Source: Pseudothermotoga sp. (GTDB lineage: Bacteria; Thermotogota; Thermotogae; Thermotogales; DSM-5069). Taken from it: a stretch of DNA of 64,000 nt. The notes below the pieces were generated by a model that made no database searches, was not told the DNA's origin, and saw only the letters and a list, made by a program, of their open reading frames with translations. Made by a program: the position numbers and the translations under genes. The stretch is taken from contig JANXCS010000003.1 in NCBI GenBank assembly GCA_025060105.1, positions 1 to 64,000 on the forward strand, in the 5' to 3' direction. Positions 761-7,822 of the stretch are shown piece after piece; the stretch's first letter is position 1; each line of letters starts with the position of its first letter.

Positions 761-814
761 TTCGAATTGGAAGAAACTGTTAACGTTCAACTCGATTTTG
801 TAGGGGTGAACAGT

Positions 815-1717
815 TTGAGCGAGAAATTCTTTTTGAAGCAACCTATGATGCGACGTATGCTCTATGCACTTGCTCCGATTTACGCTTTTGCAGTTTTCGC
901 TTACGGTTTTAGGGTGATCTTGCTCAGTTTGATCGTCTTTCCAACAGGTATTTTCGTGGAGTATCTGTTCGAAAGGGCTAAGAGGAAGCCTGTCAGCGAA
1001 GCTGTCCTTGTGAGTTGTGCACTGTTTGTGCTCGCCATGCCACCAAAAGTTCCACTGTGGATCGCCACGTTAGGTATAGCGTTCGGTATTGCTTTTGGAA
1101 AGTGTGTGTACGGTGGTTTTGGAAGAAACGTTTTCAATCCAGCCATAACTGGGAGGCTGTTCATCTATATAACTTTTCCTGCGTTCATGACGGCTGGATG
1201 GATCAGCCCAAGTTTGTTTGGAATCGATGCAGTTTCGAGTGCGACGCCTTTGGAACTTCTGCGCGAAGGAGTGCAAGTGAAACTGTCGAGCCTCTTTCTC
1301 GGTTGGCGTGCTGGTTCTATAGGCGAAGCTCCCATTTTTTTGATGATTCTTTCCGCACTGTATTTGGTGTTCACAAGAACGGCGAGCTGGCGCATCATAG
1401 TTTCAACCTTTGGTTCGGCGACGATCCTATCTTTTCTGCTCGATCTTCTCAATGCTCCAAAAGCCCTACCGGTTGTTCCAGCCGTGCTGTCAGGCAGTTT
1501 GCTTTTTGTGTCCATTTTCATGGCGACAGATCCAGTTTCTTCCCCGAGGAAAGTTAAAGCTCACTGGTTATTCGGTACCATCGTTGGAGTGTCCGGTGTT
1601 CTTGTACGCACGTTTTCCCTCTTCCCAGAAGGTTGGAGCTTTGCGATCATGATCGCCAATTCCTTTGCTCCTCTTTTGGACGAGTTGATGCAAGATAAAA
1701 AGAAGGTGAAAGCGTGA
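815..1717 (+). CDS. Nqr/Rnf-type electron-transport complex, membrane flavoprotein subunit (NqrB/RnfD)
   Basis: This is a polytopic membrane subunit of a Na+-translocating NADH:quinone or ferredoxin:NAD oxidoreductase. Subunits of this family carry covalent FMN. Hydrophobic segments run through most of its 300 residues, and the conserved start PMMRRMLYALAPIYAFAVF and the motif FGIDAVSSATPLELL are visible. The flavinylation site of the family is usually written [ST]GAT; here it reads SSAT. I chose the TTG at 815 because AGGGGTGA ends five bases upstream; a TTG at 767 in the same frame has no ribosome binding site. At 300 residues it is nearer RnfD (about 320-350) than NqrB (about 410). First gene of a tightly overlapping operon, with a GTGA overlap to the next gene. 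Confidence 0.88.
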   Translation: MSEKFFLKQPMMRRMLYALAPIYAFAVFAYGFRVILLSLIVFPTGIFVEYLFERAKRKPVSEAVLVSCALFVLAMPPKVPLWIATLGIAFGIAFGKCVYGGFGRNVFNPAITGRLFIYITFPAFMTAGWISPSLFGIDAVSSATPLELLREGVQVKLSSLFLGWRAGSIGEAPIFLMILSALYLVFTRTASWRIIVSTFGSATILSFLLDLLNAPKALPVVPAVLSGSLLFVSIFMATDPVSSPRKVKAHWLFGTIVGVSGVLVRTFSLFPEGWSFAIMIANSFAPLLDELMQDKKKVKA

Positions 1718-2313
1718 AACTCAACAGAGAGGGTAAGATCTACACTATTCTCTTCACTTTCATTGTGAGCTTCGTTTTTGTCTTCTTGCTCTCCGCAGTC
1801 AATTCTTTAACGGTAGAAAGGTCTAGGAACAATCAAGAACTCTTCAAAATCAAAGCATTACTGAATGCGTTCGGTATTCCTTTCTCGTCGAACGAGGACG
1901 CATTCGAAAAGTTCTCAAAGTTCGTTCAGCGCTTCCAACCTTCCGATATAGAACTTTACCGCACAGTTCTAAACGGTGAGGAAATGTACGCGTACGTGTT
2001 CCAAGGTAACGGTTTGTGGGGACCGATCGTTGGGGTGATCGCTGTAGATTCGAAGGTGAACAAGATCTTCGGGATCGATTTCATCTCGCAGAGTGAAACA
2101 CCAGGGCTCGGTGCAAGGATAGAAGAAAAGTGGTTCAAGGAGCAATTCAGAGGGAAAAATGTCCAGCATGGCCTGATCGTAACTAGGACCAGAACGGGCG
2201 CAGAGAACGAAGTTGATGCCATCACGGGTGCCACCTCGACGTCGAAGGCGGTCGAACGGATCGTCAACGATGCTTTGAACAATTTGAGGAAAACTTTGGG
2301 GGTGAGACCGTGA
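1714..2313 (+). CDS. Nqr/Rnf-type complex, FMN-binding subunit (NqrC/RnfG)
   Basis: This subunit has one N-terminal membrane anchor (about residues 10-30) and an extracytoplasmic FMN-binding domain. It carries a covalent flavin in the electron path of Nqr and Rnf pumps. The attachment motif DAITGATSTSKAV lies near residues 168-180, with the expected threonine in TGAT, preceded by the family motif SETPGLGARI. Its length of 199 residues fits RnfG; NqrC is usually about 250. The GTG start overlaps the stop of the upstream gene (GTGA), implying translational coupling, and the next gene overlaps it in the same way. Family membership is secure. Whether it acts in an Rnf or an Nqr complex depends on its unusual partners. 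Confidence 0.9.
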   Translation: MKLNREGKIYTILFTFIVSFVFVFLLSAVNSLTVERSRNNQELFKIKALLNAFGIPFSSNEDAFEKFSKFVQRFQPSDIELYRTVLNGEEMYAYVFQGNGLWGPIVGVIAVDSKVNKIFGIDFISQSETPGLGARIEEKWFKEQFRGKNVQHGLIVTRTRTGAENEVDAITGATSTSKAVERIVNDALNNLRKTLGVRP

Positions 2314-2912
2314 AGGTCAGAGAGATTACCCTGAAGAACCTTTGGTTAGAAAATCCCGTGTTCGTTCAGATACTCGGTATTTGTTCTACATTGGCGGTGA
2401 CGAACAATCTCAGAAACACTCTCGTCATGACGGTGGGAGTTTGTTTCGTTACGGCCCTATCGAACGCCACCATCTCGGCCTTCAGATCCTTCATACCGAG
2501 AAAAGTGAGAATGATGGTTCAAGTGTTGGTGATCTCTTTTTATGTGATTTTGGTCGACTTGGTCTTGAAGGCCTACATTCCGGAAGTGAGTAAAGCATTG
2601 GGACCGTACGTAGGTTTGATCATAACCAACTGTATCATCATGGGCAGGGCGGAAGCCTTCGCACAAGCGAACCCTCCTTTAATTTCCTTCTGGGATGGTC
2701 TAACGTCTGGATTCGGTTACATGCTCGTTTTGGTGGTGATCGCTTTTGTGAGGGAGCTTTTAGGTTTTGGAAGTTTCATGGGATTCAAGATCTTACCAGA
2801 TTCGTTCGTGCCTTGGACGATCATGGTGGTTCCTGCGAGTGCTTTCTTCGTCCTTGCCAGCTTCATATGGATCGCAAGGACTATGCAGATGAAAAGAAGA
2901 GGTGGTAAATGA
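2310..2912 (+). CDS. Nqr/Rnf-type complex, membrane subunit (NqrD/RnfE)
   Basis: A six-helix membrane protein of 200 residues. With its paralogue, the next gene, it forms the inverted-topology pair that in Nqr/Rnf holds an intramembrane iron-sulfur cluster and the ion path. Visible family features are the start NPVFVQILGICSTLAVTNNL and the segment VGLIITNCIIMGRAEAFA, with the conserved cysteine of the central half-helix, and a second FVRELLGFGSFMG segment. The start is a GTG overlapping the previous stop (GTGA), and the end overlaps the next gene by four bases (ATGA). This arrangement suggests equimolar synthesis with its neighbours. Confidence 0.92.
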   Translation: MKVREITLKNLWLENPVFVQILGICSTLAVTNNLRNTLVMTVGVCFVTALSNATISAFRSFIPRKVRMMVQVLVISFYVILVDLVLKAYIPEVSKALGPYVGLIITNCIIMGRAEAFAQANPPLISFWDGLTSGFGYMLVLVVIAFVRELLGFGSFMGFKILPDSFVPWTIMVVPASAFFVLASFIWIARTMQMKRRGGK

Positions 2913-3502
2913 TGCCACGGATCGACCCATTCTCACTTTTGATCGCTTCCATCTTTACAAGCAACGTTCTTCTCAGCTATTTTCTCGGAATGTGTTCCTT
3001 CATATCCATATCGAAAGACCTCAAATCCTCAAACGGCTTGGGTATGGCCGTCACGTTGGTGATGACGATCACTACAGCCGCGAACTGGATCGTAGAAAAG
3101 TACATCATACAGGTGTGGAATCTTTCTTATCTCAGATACATTTTGTACATAATCGTGATCGCTGCGGTGGTCCAAATGCTAGAGATGATAATCGATCGTG
3201 TATCACCAGCACTCTACATTTCGCTGGGAATCTTTTTACCACTGATCACCGTGAACTGTGCCATTTTGGGCGTGGCTCTTTTCATGCAACTGAGAAACTA
3301 TTCTTTGATCCAATCTATCTTTTACGGTTTTGGAAGTGGCCTTGGTTGGTGGCTAGCCATAGTGCTCCTCGCGGCTATAAGAAAAAGGATCGAGAACGCA
3401 CCAATCCCAGCAGGTTTGAAGGGAGTTGGAATCACGCTCATCACGATAGGGCTCATGGCGATGGCCTTCATGGGTTTTGCGGGCATGCTGCCAGTTCAGT
3501 GA
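2909..3502 (+). CDS. Nqr/Rnf-type complex, membrane subunit (NqrE/RnfA)
   Basis: The partner of the preceding NqrD/RnfE-like subunit: 197 residues, six predicted membrane helices. Conserved features are FTSNVLLSYFLGMCSFISIS near the N terminus and LITVNCAILGVALF near residue 115; each contains one of the cysteines that bind the intramembrane iron-sulfur cluster in this family. The start overlaps the upstream stop (ATGA). It ends 16 bases before the NqrF-like gene. Confidence 0.92.
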   Translation: MMPRIDPFSLLIASIFTSNVLLSYFLGMCSFISISKDLKSSNGLGMAVTLVMTITTAANWIVEKYIIQVWNLSYLRYILYIIVIAAVVQMLEMIIDRVSPALYISLGIFLPLITVNCAILGVALFMQLRNYSLIQSIFYGFGSGLGWWLAIVLLAAIRKRIENAPIPAGLKGVGITLITIGLMAMAFMGFAGMLPVQ

Positions 3503-3518: not shown

Positions 3519-4625
3519 ATGGATTTTCTTGCGCCTTTGATCGTTTCTTCTCTCGGTGCAGGACTCGCGTTAATGATCTCCATAGTCGATGCGATCGTGA
3601 ACAATTACGGAGAAGTGGAAATAAACATCAACAAGGGAAAGAAGAGGTTGAAAGTCAAGGGAGGTTCACCTTTACTGCAGACTCTCGCTGCACAGAATAT
3701 CTTTGTGCCATCAGCGTGCGGTGGTAGAGGAAGCTGTGGGGTGTGCAAAGTGAGGATTTTTTCCGATGTGGGTCCATATTTGCCAACAGAACTACCGCAT
3801 CTGAGCAAGGAGGAGATGGCGAGCAACGTGAGGCTTTCTTGTCAGATAAAGGTTAAAAAAGATCTTCAGATCGAGCTTCCCGAAGAACTCTTCAAAGCTC
3901 AGAGGTTCAAAGGCATCGTGGAGAGTATCAAGGACCTCACTTACGATATCAAAGAAATCAGGATAAGACTTGTAGAACCAGACAGTATCGATTTTCTGGC
4001 AGGTCAATACATCCAATTGGTCATACCACCTTACGGAAAAGTGGAACAGTCAGTACAGCGTGCTTATTCTATATCTTCTCCACCGAGCGATTCTGGACAC
4101 ATAGAATTGGTGATAAGACTAGTTCCAGGGGGCATAGCGACGACTTACGTTTTCAACCACATGAAAGAAGGGGAAATAGTTGAATTTGTTGGTCCATTCG
4201 GCGAATTCTACATGAGGAACACAAAAGCGGATATGATCATGATCGCTGGTGGTAGTGGCATGGCACCGATAAAATCGATCATCCTAGACATGATCGATAG
4301 AAAAATCAAAGACAGAAACGTGTGGTTTTTCTTCGGTGCGAGAAGTAAAAGAGACCTGTTCTACGTGGAGCTGTTTCGAACGATCGAGAAAGATTGGGAC
4401 AGGTTCCACTTCATTCCAGCTCTTTCCAATCCAAATCCTGAAGATGATTGGACTGGTGAGTTGGGATTGATCACGGAAGTTGTGGATAGGTATTTGATGA
4501 GTAAGATATCAAAAGAAAATGAAAAAGAAGCTTACCTGTGTGGAAGTCCTGGTATGATAAATGCCTCGATACAGGTGTTACAGAAACATGGGATCAACAA
4601 GATCTATTATGACAAGTTCGCCTGA
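3519..4625 (+). CDS. nqrF: NqrF-type NADH-oxidising subunit with [2Fe-2S] and FAD domains
   Basis: The electron-input subunit: one N-terminal membrane helix (about residues 5-25), a plant-type [2Fe-2S] ferredoxin domain, then a ferredoxin-NADP reductase-like FAD/NADH domain. Cysteines 67, 73, 76 and 108 (CGGRGSCGVC and LSCQ) have the spacing expected of NqrF. The FAD motif RAYSISSPP and the nucleotide loop GGSGMAPIKS are intact, and CGSPGM lies near the end. The ATG at 3519 has GGGGGA eight bases upstream; an ATG at 3477 lies inside the previous gene and is less likely. Length (368) is slightly short of the usual ~405. The operon has the F subunit of Nqr, yet no NqrA and no RnfB or RnfC occurs in it. 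Confidence 0.93.
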   Translation: MDFLAPLIVSSLGAGLALMISIVDAIVNNYGEVEININKGKKRLKVKGGSPLLQTLAAQNIFVPSACGGRGSCGVCKVRIFSDVGPYLPTELPHLSKEEMASNVRLSCQIKVKKDLQIELPEELFKAQRFKGIVESIKDLTYDIKEIRIRLVEPDSIDFLAGQYIQLVIPPYGKVEQSVQRAYSISSPPSDSGHIELVIRLVPGGIATTYVFNHMKEGEIVEFVGPFGEFYMRNTKADMIMIAGGSGMAPIKSIILDMIDRKIKDRNVWFFFGARSKRDLFYVELFRTIEKDWDRFHFIPALSNPNPEDDWTGELGLITEVVDRYLMSKISKENEKEAYLCGSPGMINASIQVLQKHGINKIYYDKFA

Positions 4626-4639
4626 TGGGAGGTGAAACG

Positions 4640-5089
4640 ATGAAGATGACACCTCAGCAGATCAAAGCTCAGGAGAACATGAAACCTGGCAAGATAACGG
4701 CCGATGGTTTTTTAGGTGACGACGATAGGAACATAGTTGATATAATTCAGGAAGACGAAACCAACTTTGCTCGCCTCGGGATCGATTTCAACGAAGTTGC
4801 TGAGCTGATGCGAAAACTCATGAAAGAAGGACTCAAAGGTTTAGGCGAACCCATCGTGTACGAAAAATGGGAAATAAGAGTGGATGAAGCGCGTGGTTTC
4901 TTGCCTTGTCCGTATCAGGATGGAATATTCAGAAAGAGAGTCGCCACGGTGAGGAACCTCAGAAACGATGAACAGATCATTTTCAGTGATCTTTCCATAC
5001 ACCTGCTCGAGAAGCACCACTTTTTGCAGGGGAAAGGCTCCAAATTCAGGATCGAACCAGAGAAGATCAAAAAAGTCTTCTATGATTAA
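4640..5089 (+). CDS. Conserved hypothetical protein, last gene tightly linked to the Nqr-like operon
   Basis: I do not recognise a named function. It is a soluble-looking protein of 149 residues with no signal peptide or membrane segment. It is acidic in the N-terminal half (DGFLGDDDRNIVDIIQEDE) and has a helical middle (ELMRKLMKEGLKGLGEPIVYEKWEIRVDEARG), a single CPY motif and a basic C terminus. The start at 4640 follows GGGAGGTGA; an earlier in-frame ATG at 4625 overlaps the nqrF stop but lies inside that ribosome binding site. Only 14 bases separate it from nqrF, so it is cotranscribed and could be an accessory or assembly factor of the pump. That role is inferred from position only. Confidence 0.7.
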   Translation: MKMTPQQIKAQENMKPGKITADGFLGDDDRNIVDIIQEDETNFARLGIDFNEVAELMRKLMKEGLKGLGEPIVYEKWEIRVDEARGFLPCPYQDGIFRKRVATVRNLRNDEQIIFSDLSIHLLEKHHFLQGKGSKFRIEPEKIKKVFYD

Positions 5090-5105: not shown

Positions 5106-5570
5106 GTGTGGATGACTGATCAAAAGCGTGTTAGATCACTTCTCATACTGGTGATATTCGGATGGAGCTTTCTATTCGCTTTCGCTTCGATACTGTACAT
5201 CGCGGAAGTTGAATGGTATGTTCTACTAGTTTTCTTGGCTGTCTACACTCTATCTGCTGTGATCAGCACGCTTCAATTCATAAGCTATTCAAAAGGCATC
5301 TTTGTGAGTGACTTTGAAATAATCCTGCCAGGTGTAACGAGAAAAAAGTTCTCTTCACAAGATCTGGAAAAGATTGTTTTGTCTGACACTAGATCGAGGT
5401 TTGGAACTAACTACTTTGCCATGTTCTATCTGAAGGGGAAAAAGTTTCCTTACGGTGTGACGTTCTCATCCGACGAAAAGCGCCGAGAGATCATCGAATT
5501 GTTATGTGAATTCTGCCCACACGTTCAGCTGGTAGATAAAACTAAACGTTCCGAAAAAAGGAAAAAGTGA
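5106..5570 (+). CDS. Small membrane protein with a PH-like cytoplasmic tail, unknown function
   Basis: 154 residues. Two hydrophobic helices (about residues 10-30 and 37-58) are followed by a cytoplasmic part with alternating strands (SKGIFVSDFEIILPG, MFYLKGKKFPYGVTF), resembling bacterial PH-like domains found after two membrane helices (YcxB/YdbT-like). That resemblance is by eye and is only a suggestion. The start is the GTG at 5106, with ATG 5112 as an alternative, and AAGGAG just overlaps the upstream stop. It continues the same strand and is probably read through from the pump operon, since I see no terminator before it. Confidence 0.6.
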   Translation: MWMTDQKRVRSLLILVIFGWSFLFAFASILYIAEVEWYVLLVFLAVYTLSAVISTLQFISYSKGIFVSDFEIILPGVTRKKFSSQDLEKIVLSDTRSRFGTNYFAMFYLKGKKFPYGVTFSSDEKRREIIELLCEFCPHVQLVDKTKRSEKRKK

Positions 5571-5577
5571 GATTGAA

Positions 5578-6177
5578 ATGCAGCAACACGGATTTAAACT
5601 TTTCATTTTCGATGTGGGTGGAGTCTTGTGCGATGGAACTTCCGTGACCCATTTGATAAGTGAGTATCTATCTATAAACCAGCAGGAATTTATCAAGCTT
5701 GCCAAACTTTCTGGACTCAGAGACCTTCAGACGGGAAAAATCACAGCAAGACAATTTTGGGAGAATTTTTCAAAGCTTTCAGGTAAACACGTTGAAGAAG
5801 ATCTGTGGGTTAAATTCTTCAAACCAAAGTTGAAGTTAGAAACGGCGAGGCTGATAGAACGCTTGAAAATGAGATACAGAGTGGTCGCTGGTACGAACAC
5901 CATAGAGTCACACTATCAGATTCACCTTGAAAATGGAGATTATCGTTTCTTCGATCGTGTCTATGCATCCCACCAAGTAGGCTATCTCAAGCCAGATGAT
6001 GATTTCTTCCATTACATTTTAAAGAAAGAGTCGATCTCACCGCAGGAAACTTTCTTTGTGGATGATTCATTCGAAAACGTTTTGGCAGCTCAAAAGCTTG
6101 AAATTCACTCTGTGTTGTTCACAAATGCACAAGATCTACAAAGCAAGTTGTCTTCTCTCAAGCTGATCGATTTTTAA
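5578..6177 (+). CDS. HAD-superfamily hydrolase (phosphatase-like)
   Basis: A haloacid-dehalogenase-fold hydrolase of 199 residues, of the kind that includes YihX sugar phosphatases. Motif I is FDVGGVL (nucleophile Asp), motif II AGTNT, motif III the lysine in LKPDDDFF, and motif IV FVDDS. The residue two after the nucleophile is Gly rather than the Asp of classic phosphatases; this DxGGV form is common in YihX-like and dehalogenase-like members, so it is not by itself a defect. The substrate cannot be told. It starts seven bases after the preceding gene and is followed by a bidirectional terminator, so it ends the rightward transcript. Confidence 0.82.
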   Translation: MQQHGFKLFIFDVGGVLCDGTSVTHLISEYLSINQQEFIKLAKLSGLRDLQTGKITARQFWENFSKLSGKHVEEDLWVKFFKPKLKLETARLIERLKMRYRVVAGTNTIESHYQIHLENGDYRFFDRVYASHQVGYLKPDDDFFHYILKKESISPQETFFVDDSFENVLAAQKLEIHSVLFTNAQDLQSKLSSLKLIDF

Positions 6178-6181
6178 ATGA

Positions 6182-6208
6182 AAAACCAAGCCCCATAGGG
6201 CTTGGTTT
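6182..6208. terminator. Bidirectional terminator between convergent genes
   Basis: AAACCAAGCCC, loop CATA, GGGCTTGGTTT. It lies between the rightward HAD gene and the leftward lipoprotein gene and can serve both, with T-rich tails in both directions. Confidence 0.8.
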
Positions 6209-6822: not shown

Positions 6823-7686
6823 TCACCAAATTATTTTTCTTCTGAAGTGACAGTAAGGAACTTTACCGGTTCTTTCGTAATAATCTTGATGATAATCTTC
6901 CGCAAGCCAAAACGTCGAAGCTTTTCTTATCCGGGTTGTCACTCGATAACGTGTGCTCAATCGATTCTTCAAACTCTCCGCGACCATTTTCTGTGATTCG
7001 CTTGTGTAAAAAATTACACTTTTGTACTGTTCGCCTATATCTGGACCCTGTCCATCTTCTTGAGTGAAATCATGAATTTCGAAAAAGTATTTTATTAGGT
7101 TTTCTTCGTTCATCTTTTTAGGATCGAATATGACTTCCACGGTTTCGACATGGCCTGTTTTCCCAGTGCACACGTCTTCGTAAGTTGGGTTATCCACATG
7201 TCCTCCCATGTAACCGACTCTGGTATCGATGATCCCTTCCAATTGTTTGAACAGATGCTCCACACCCCAGAAACAACCTGCCGCAAAGAAGATTCTATCT
7301 ATCTTGGGTTTCTGACCAGCAGGTACAAATTTCAAAGAGACACTGTTCACACAATGACGAACATTTTTCGGTGTGAAACCTTCGTTAAAGAAGACATGCC
7401 CAAGGTGAGCTCCACAATAGGCACACGTTATCTCTATTCTGACGCCATCTTTATCCAACTCTTTTCTCACAGCGCCAGGAATTTCATCGTCGAAAGCAGG
7501 CCAACCACAACCAGAGTGAAATTTATCTTGGCTTCTGTAAAGCGGTATGCCACAGTTTTTGCAGGTGTATATTCCCTCTTCAAAATGATCGACGTATTCA
7601 CCACTGAACGGTGGCTCTGTACCTTTACCAAAAAGTACGAACTTTTCGAATTCACTGAGTTGCGTGTTCCTTTTTATACGTTTCAA
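6823..7686 (-). CDS. msrBA: Fused peptide methionine sulfoxide reductase MsrB-MsrA
   Basis: Repairs oxidised methionine in both stereoisomers. The N-terminal MsrB domain (about residues 10-122) has the zinc cysteines CKNC (42/45) and CAYC (88/91) and the catalytic Cys112 in RHCVNS. The MsrA domain (about 130-288) has the catalytic Cys138 in GCFWGVE and the conserved GGHVDNPTYEDVCTG stretch. Fusions in MsrA-MsrB order are common; here the order is MsrB first. I chose TTG 7686 because the upstream TTG at 7710 only adds eight residues and GGGAGAG lies better for the inner start; the spacing is not ideal, so the start is uncertain. It is transcribed alone and was probably acquired or kept for oxygen stress. 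Confidence 0.93.
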   Translation of the reverse strand: MKRIKRNTQLSEFEKFVLFGKGTEPPFSGEYVDHFEEGIYTCKNCGIPLYRSQDKFHSGCGWPAFDDEIPGAVRKELDKDGVRIEITCAYCGAHLGHVFFNEGFTPKNVRHCVNSVSLKFVPAGQKPKIDRIFFAAGCFWGVEHLFKQLEGIIDTRVGYMGGHVDNPTYEDVCTGKTGHVETVEVIFDPKKMNEENLIKYFFEIHDFTQEDGQGPDIGEQYKSVIFYTSESQKMVAESLKNRLSTRYRVTTRIRKASTFWLAEDYHQDYYERTGKVPYCHFRRKIIW

Positions 7687-7822
7687 ATTCTCTCCATCTC
7701 TCCCAAACAAATCATATCATAAATCAAAATTAAGCGAACCTTCCGTTAGTTCAGGATCATTCAAGTTTCCTTCCAACTAAAAGCGCTTCGACATTAGCTA
7801 CGTTTCCTTCGAGGTCTATACA

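Follow-up and report, generated by a model that had tools for sequence, protein, structure and literature searches.

A conserved small protein encoded behind nqrF is a candidate NqrA-replacing subunit of NqrA-less Na+-pumping NADH oxidoreductases

NADH oxidoreductases of the NqrBCDEF type that lack NqrA have been reported in Thermotoga thermarum, T. lettingae and Clostridium ultunense (PMC4148951, PMC5924567). The absence of NqrA from C. ultunense and P. lettingae is depicted together with Alkaliphilus metalliredigens (PMC5924567), and the available text of these accounts states the electron acceptor of the NqrA-less pump as unknown (PMC4148951, PMC5924567). In the accessible portion of another survey, nqr was not found in Thermotogae (PMC4014512). 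In Vibrio cholerae, the available text places the assembly genes apbE and nqrM directly behind nqrF (PMC12174285).

Here we describe a gene, designated ‘X’ (a placeholder name), that follows nqrF in an operon of the NqrA-less type. No paper describing X was found in a literature search, which was hampered by X having no name, and the available text of the accounts of the NqrA-less pump does not mention it (PMC4148951, PMC5924567).

Gene X and its operon

The window (the whole 64,000-nucleotide stretch of DNA analysed) opens contig C3 of a genome of 1.92 Mb, 99% complete. It carries, in order, nqrB, nqrC, nqrD, nqrE, nqrF, X, a small gene at 5106-5573 and a HAD hydrolase gene at 5578-6177, and the identities of NqrB to NqrF were confirmed with Pfam and NCBIfam. 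The plus-strand gene nqrB (767..1717) belongs to the RnfD/NqrB family (Pfam/NCBIfam); its true start may lie further in, at GTG 806 or TTG 815, and MMRR occupies residues 27-30, so that at most 26 residues can precede it even from the first start codon. On the same strand follow nqrC (1714..2313), which encodes an FMN-binding protein (Pfam/NCBIfam) containing, by eye, the sequence DAITGATST, which we take to be the flavinylation motif, and nqrD (2310..2912) and nqrE (2909..3502), each with two cysteines in stretches homologous to cluster-binding ones (by eye), as expected for the membrane cluster. nqrF (3519..4625, plus strand) encodes 368 amino acids with intact 2Fe-2S, FAD and NAD domains.

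X (4640..5089, plus strand) is read from an ATG and encodes an uncharacterised soluble protein of 149 amino acids, a candidate for a subunit replacing NqrA. The nqrF stop codon, TGA, occupies 4623-4625, leaving a gap of 14 bases within which the ribosome-binding site GGAGGTGA (4628..4635, plus strand) can be read directly; the first-pass annotation, which had placed the gene 14 bases 3' of nqrF with a strong ribosome site, is thus confirmed on the sequence. An upstream in-frame ATG at 4625 would add five residues to X, and the start at 4640 is preferred because ATG 4625 precedes the ribosome site and because the conserved MK of the family aligns at 4640. X is present in a single copy in the genome. 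It is a real gene, far beyond chance, since it has relatives in three phyla and a low dN/dS (0.04-0.14 in seven of 11 pairs, dS being saturated in the other four).

The small gene at 5106-5573, whose product has a hydrophobic N-terminal half, yielded no domain over cut-off in Pfam or NCBIfam. It had been described as less tightly linked than X, which does not hold: it begins only 16 bases after X and has its own AAGGAG-type site. tblastn at E<=1e-3 detected it in none of the loci L002-L035, and from these searches it is probably lineage-specific. The HAD hydrolase gene (5578-6177) is the last of the run, and a hairpin scored as a minus-strand terminator (6183-6208) lies between it and the convergent next gene. 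An ORF on the minus strand at 6823-7710 resembles a fused methionine sulphoxide reductase, presumably of the MsrB-MsrA type. The earlier observation that NqrA, RnfB and RnfC are missing from the operon was right; RnfC is encoded elsewhere in the genome (G000:C1:16257-17540). In several Spirochaetales (L028, L030, L031, L033, L035), a response-regulator-like gene, recognised by its N-terminal sequence, adjoins the X-type operon.

Domain, fold and conservation of X

Searches of the window's X against Pfam, NCBIfam and the PDB gave no significant match, in agreement with the first reading of X as free of recognisable domains: nothing appeared at E<=1 except a sub-cut-off helix-turn-helix (HTH) match at E 0.55. 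Pfam scans of two overlapping sets of relatives (29 and 12 members) returned scattered matches only, at E >=0.018, and each weak match of the family (Pfam/NCBIfam on the window's X, Pfam on its relatives) occurred in at most four members; a reading of X as a known domain was therefore rejected. Neither the NqrA nor the RnfC profile matched the window's X at E<=1, and PF04400 (NqrM) matched neither the window's X nor 29 family members at E<=1.

The AlphaFold2 model of X, built from 14 aligned sequences, is confident (pLDDT 94.2, pTM 0.86) and consists of three N-terminal helices, a small beta sheet and two helices. The full model matched no PDB chain at E 0.001 (best Z 2.6), and the C-terminal 84 residues (66-149) likewise matched none at E<=0.001 (best Z 3.5); such a non-match of a predicted structure does not amount to proof of a new fold. 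The first-pass annotation had named a known unrelated enzyme fold as the outcome that would speak against its proposal, and the structure prediction gives none. Five giant-virus proteins, among them Satyrvirus A0A3G5AF77, match most of the model (Foldseek, BFVD; E 5e-8 to 7.4e-5; TM 0.63-0.76 by the length of X). The likeness is one of predicted fold over most of X, between proteins of 281-338 amino acids and one of 149, at 15-21% identity. All five viral proteins are uncharacterised, and the match therefore gives no function for X; it suggests, from predicted models, a fold that is not confined to the pump. A 29-member X alignment (A2) found no relative on viral contigs. Two matches obtained there with a second alignment (A4) lay opposite a helicase-type ORF and were dismissed as chance, and a motif pattern picked out three viral stretches, none of them related by eye.

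Conservation was assessed in 54 loci, the set that carries X together with nqrF and nqrE once nine repeats are removed. Residues K2, G17, G23, F24, G26, D39, R85, G86 and P91 are invariant in all 54, as are K99, F128, G131, G133 and R137. The median pairwise identity is 0.48 for X, 0.58 for NqrF and 0.71 for NqrE, and dN of X exceeds that of NqrF in seven of 11 pairs. Identities of X and NqrF correlate (r 0.87), as is expected from shared descent. A role as a metal or Fe-S carrier was considered and rejected, as Cys90 is replaced by Ser in 13 of the 54 loci and His126 and His127 vary; having no invariant Cys, X is not an Fe-S carrier by way of Cys. Two of the Spirochaetales loci with Ser in place of Cys90 (L033 and L035, from G051 and G053) have a far longer NqrB frame (434-438 aa) with NqrB matches in two pieces, and both genomes give strong UbiA matches.

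Distribution of X, nqrF and NqrA

The arrangement nqrBCDEF followed by X occurs in Thermotogota, Spirochaetota and Ilyobacter polytropus (Fusobacteriota), and named records with related loci include Fervidobacterium, Thermosipho, Pseudothermotoga and Spirochaetes/Spirochaetales assemblies. Among 41 Thermotogales genomes, X (at strong E) and nqrF (E<=1e-60) are found in the same 20, and the other 21 hold neither (Fisher p 4e-12, uncorrected for phylogeny). Two genomes that have no nqrF (G019, G021) gave weak X matches (E 0.004); these are 38 residues long, the frame contains a stop and the loci show no pump genes, and they were left out of the X counts. The unbiased test of linkage is the use of NqrF as bait across Thermotogota, rather than the NqrF tree considered below. 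The bait matched in 54 of 103 genomes, and of the 53 loci that could be read 52 have X after nqrF; the 52 comprise 49 of the 50 loci read from the bait plus those of G003, G004 and G028, and one further locus (G379) is cut by a contig end. The lone miss (G402) is not a pump gene: its product is an FAD/NAD reductase of 43% identity that has no 2Fe-2S domain, and the surrounding 9 kb contain no other nqr gene. NqrE was seen in all 30 of the longer Thermotogota loci, the 20 shorter ones beginning at nqrF.

In Spirochaetota, 27 of 296 genomes hold X, with nqrF upstream in 26 and the 27th locus (L070) cut by a contig end; an nqrF profile search at E<=1e-45 found only 13 of these 27 genomes, and in the remaining 13 readable ones nqrF was detected by tblastn within the loci. 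A pattern scan of genome contigs gave nqrF upstream in 13 of 13 loci, some in genomes shared with the other counts; the pattern was built on the window's X alone, and distant X in other phyla could escape it. Of 72,556 plasmid records one carries X, the Ilyobacter polytropus plasmid pILYOP01, where a 57% identical ‘hypothetical protein’ (WP_013388434.1) is encoded directly behind nqrBCDEF. Its NqrF, at 59.6% identity, is the best NqrF match among plasmids, the other 19 records among the best 20 of 171 matches reaching at most 37.7%. The entire X-type pump operon (L131; NC_014633.1 64606-68931) lies on this plasmid of 962 kb. Over 64 loci, repeats included, the gap between nqrF and X has a median of 14 bases, is at most 30 bases in 51 and reaches 184 at the largest. 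A separate locus (L188, G392:C10) has about 370 bases between the two genes, without a coding-strand ORF of 60 amino acids. The first-pass annotation had asked whether the gene occurs apart from the pump, and no convincing X without the pump was seen in the genomes searched.

The relation of X to NqrA was examined mainly in Spirochaetota, where 27 of the 296 genomes have an nqrA that passes the curated cut-off (E<=1e-40 is reached in 29) and X occurs in none of these 27. This exclusivity is weak and not significant on its own (P 0.067 for zero overlap), and the weight of the argument therefore lies on the NqrF clade. In a tree of 55 NqrF sequences with X and 25 from nqrA genomes, a single split with support 100/100 separates the two; the X side holds Thermotogota, Spirochaetota and Ilyobacter and the nqrA side is all Spirochaetota, repeats and NqrF under 300 amino acids were left out, and most rows on the X side had been located by way of X itself. 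NqrF is 361-378 amino acids long with X and 402-414 in nqrA genomes, two fragments being excluded. Two Spirochaetota have unclear gene sets. In G266, which was left out, a contig end cuts NqrF down to 111 residues with a score per residue of the canonical kind, and neither X within the 1.5 kb behind it nor nqrA over cut-off is seen; in G267, nqrA passes the cut-off but nqrF does not appear at E<=1e-45. The NqrA profile TIGR01936 passes its cut-off in none of 13 X genomes and gives weaker matches in ten of them, and the window's genome has one weak NQRA_N match only, inside its RnfC gene. An nqrA-like gene in G121, an X genome, was rejected as NqrA (161.9 bits against a cut-off of 321; RnfC-type 4Fe-4S motifs by eye). 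This gene (L129, G121:C336), with its CxxCxxCxxxC motifs, adjoins an NqrB-like gene and is, from its sequence, a possible NqrA/RnfC intermediate.

A second difference concerns the N-terminus of NqrB, of which the available text on V. cholerae describes Phe34-Leu54 as intertwined with the C-terminal loop of NqrA (PMC9325719). Before the first-helix anchor, a rough marker that was extrapolated in distant rows, at most 6-36 residues are possible in all 14 X-type nqrB frames (the window's included), against at least 53 in all 27 frames adjoining nqrA. Of seven rnfD-like frames that adjoin rnfC, six have 19-22 residues ahead of the anchor. The short N-terminus is also the RnfD state, and the X-type form may represent an old state kept rather than the outcome of a loss. 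In the phyla examined, the annotation ‘NqrF present’ covers two distinct complexes, which the presence of X or of NqrA distinguishes.

Quinone synthesis and accessory proteins were compared between the same groups. At E<=1e-5, no UbiA-family protein was matched in 21 of 53 X genomes (13 of the 20 Thermotogales and eight of the 33 Spirochaetota), whereas all 27 nqrA genomes gave a match, a contrast with Fisher p 4e-5 (0.006 within Spirochaetota alone) that is uncorrected for phylogeny and may include gaps in metagenome-assembled genomes. The window's genome has one UbiA member. All 14 control genomes, that of Thermotoga maritima among them, matched UbiA as well, and the presence of UbiA therefore does not show quinones; in the near-complete Thermotogales without UbiA, gene content indicates that the acceptor is probably not a quinone. 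RnfC is found in 51 of the 53 X genomes, the two without a match at E<=1e-20 (G050, and G003, which is 81% complete) possibly reflecting assembly gaps. The NqrM profile, at E<=0.001, is found in none of the 53, and is also missing from 24 of 27 nqrA-bearing Spirochaetota.

Possible roles of X and comparison with known systems

On genomic evidence, X is a conserved, specific partner of the NqrA-less NQR clade. The reading we hold somewhat more probable than all others together is that X is a dedicated, stoichiometric cytoplasmic subunit standing in NqrA's place in an NqrA-less Na+-pumping NADH oxidoreductase, NqrBCDEF-X; it is based on the strict linkage in the genomes read, the lack of an above-cut-off NqrA beside X, the separate NqrF clade, the short NqrB N-terminus and a confidently predicted fold unmatched in the PDB. 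In such a complex, NADH would feed NqrF (FAD, 2Fe-2S), electrons would cross the membrane twice via NqrD/E, NqrC and NqrB, as in known NQR and RNF, and X would cap the cytoplasmic face of NqrB/NqrF, the position held by NqrA or RnfC in relatives, where it would hold the complex together and/or shape the acceptor exit site. We infer the contact of X with the pump, its place on NqrB/NqrF and any role in electron exit. Against this reading stand the position of X, which V. cholerae gives to assembly genes, the lack of an invariant Cys, the lower conservation of X compared with NqrF, the presence of RnfC in 51 of 53 X genomes and the recurrence of the fold among giant-virus proteins. The proposal of the first-pass annotation that X is an extra pump subunit gains support from the linkage and from the absence of a known fold, X remaining a candidate on gene evidence. 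That annotation also suggested a part in input or assembly; input is unlikely, because NqrF has intact 2Fe-2S, FAD and NAD domains, and assembly or an NqrA-like structural or output role fits better. A bolder version is rather doubtful: X would replace NqrA/RnfC as the exit module in a separate class of sodium pump and pass electrons from the riboflavin of NqrB to an acceptor in the cytoplasm other than a quinone, allowing fermenters without quinones to respire NADH with a soluble acceptor.

The main rival, unlikely as it seems, casts X as a transient assembly or maturation factor that, like NqrM or ApbE, would serve the NqrD/E 2Fe-2S cluster, NqrF insertion or flavin loading. X occupies the position of apbE and nqrM in the available description of V. 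cholerae (PMC12174285), carries no cofactor motif, evolves somewhat faster than NqrF and belongs to genomes in all 53 of which the NqrM profile is missing; yet 24 of the 27 nqrA-bearing Spirochaetota also manage their pumps without NqrM, X has no invariant Cys, and the split between X and NqrA clades suggests replacement rather than help. It is improbable that NqrBCDEF uses the RnfC of the rnf operon in place of NqrA, with X acting only as an adapter: RnfC is a homologue of NqrA present in 51 of 53 X genomes, and the NqrB N-terminus is short and RnfD-like, but X occurs without an RnfC match in G050 and G003, if these are not both assembly gaps.

Regulators are usually lost in some lineages, whereas in all but one of the 53 Thermotogota nqrF loci that could be read X is kept behind the gene, and the exception is not a pump gene; we accordingly regard it as quite improbable that X regulates the pump by gating NqrF or NqrB in response to a bound nucleotide or metabolite, even though R85, K99, G131, G133 and R137, invariant in 54 of 54 loci, could bind an anion. 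Operon position alone is no proof of function, and X might be a hitch-hiking neighbour with an unrelated role, but it stays linked to the pump genes in three phyla while its downstream neighbour varies by lineage, which makes this very improbable.

X offers a concrete, conserved handle on the second substrate of the NqrA-less pump. As an exit module, it would imply a redox-driven Na+ pump needing neither quinone nor NqrA; if it serves assembly instead, it would define a new factor of that kind for a large clade of pumps. The existence of two NqrF complexes matters for the metabolic annotation of fermenters.

Among described systems, NqrM (PF04400) resembles X in being encoded by a small gene behind nqrF in V. 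cholerae, but is, in the available description, a membrane-bound Fe-S maturation protein (PMC12174285), whereas X has neither a PF04400 match nor an invariant Cys. RNF (RnfCDGEAB, as in Thermotoga maritima) has a homologous membrane core and shares the short NqrB/RnfD N-terminus with the X-type pump, which differs in taking its input through NqrF rather than RnfB and in having neither RnfB nor RnfC in the operon. Na+-NQR (NqrABCDEF, Vibrio cholerae) shares homologues of NqrB, C, D, E and F, together with the FAD/2Fe-2S NADH input module. In contrast to Na+-NQR, the X-type operon has no nqrA, its NqrB is without the long N-terminal stretch, its NqrF is shorter (361-378 aa vs. 402-414 aa in the nqrA genomes of Spirochaetota), and X is added behind nqrF.
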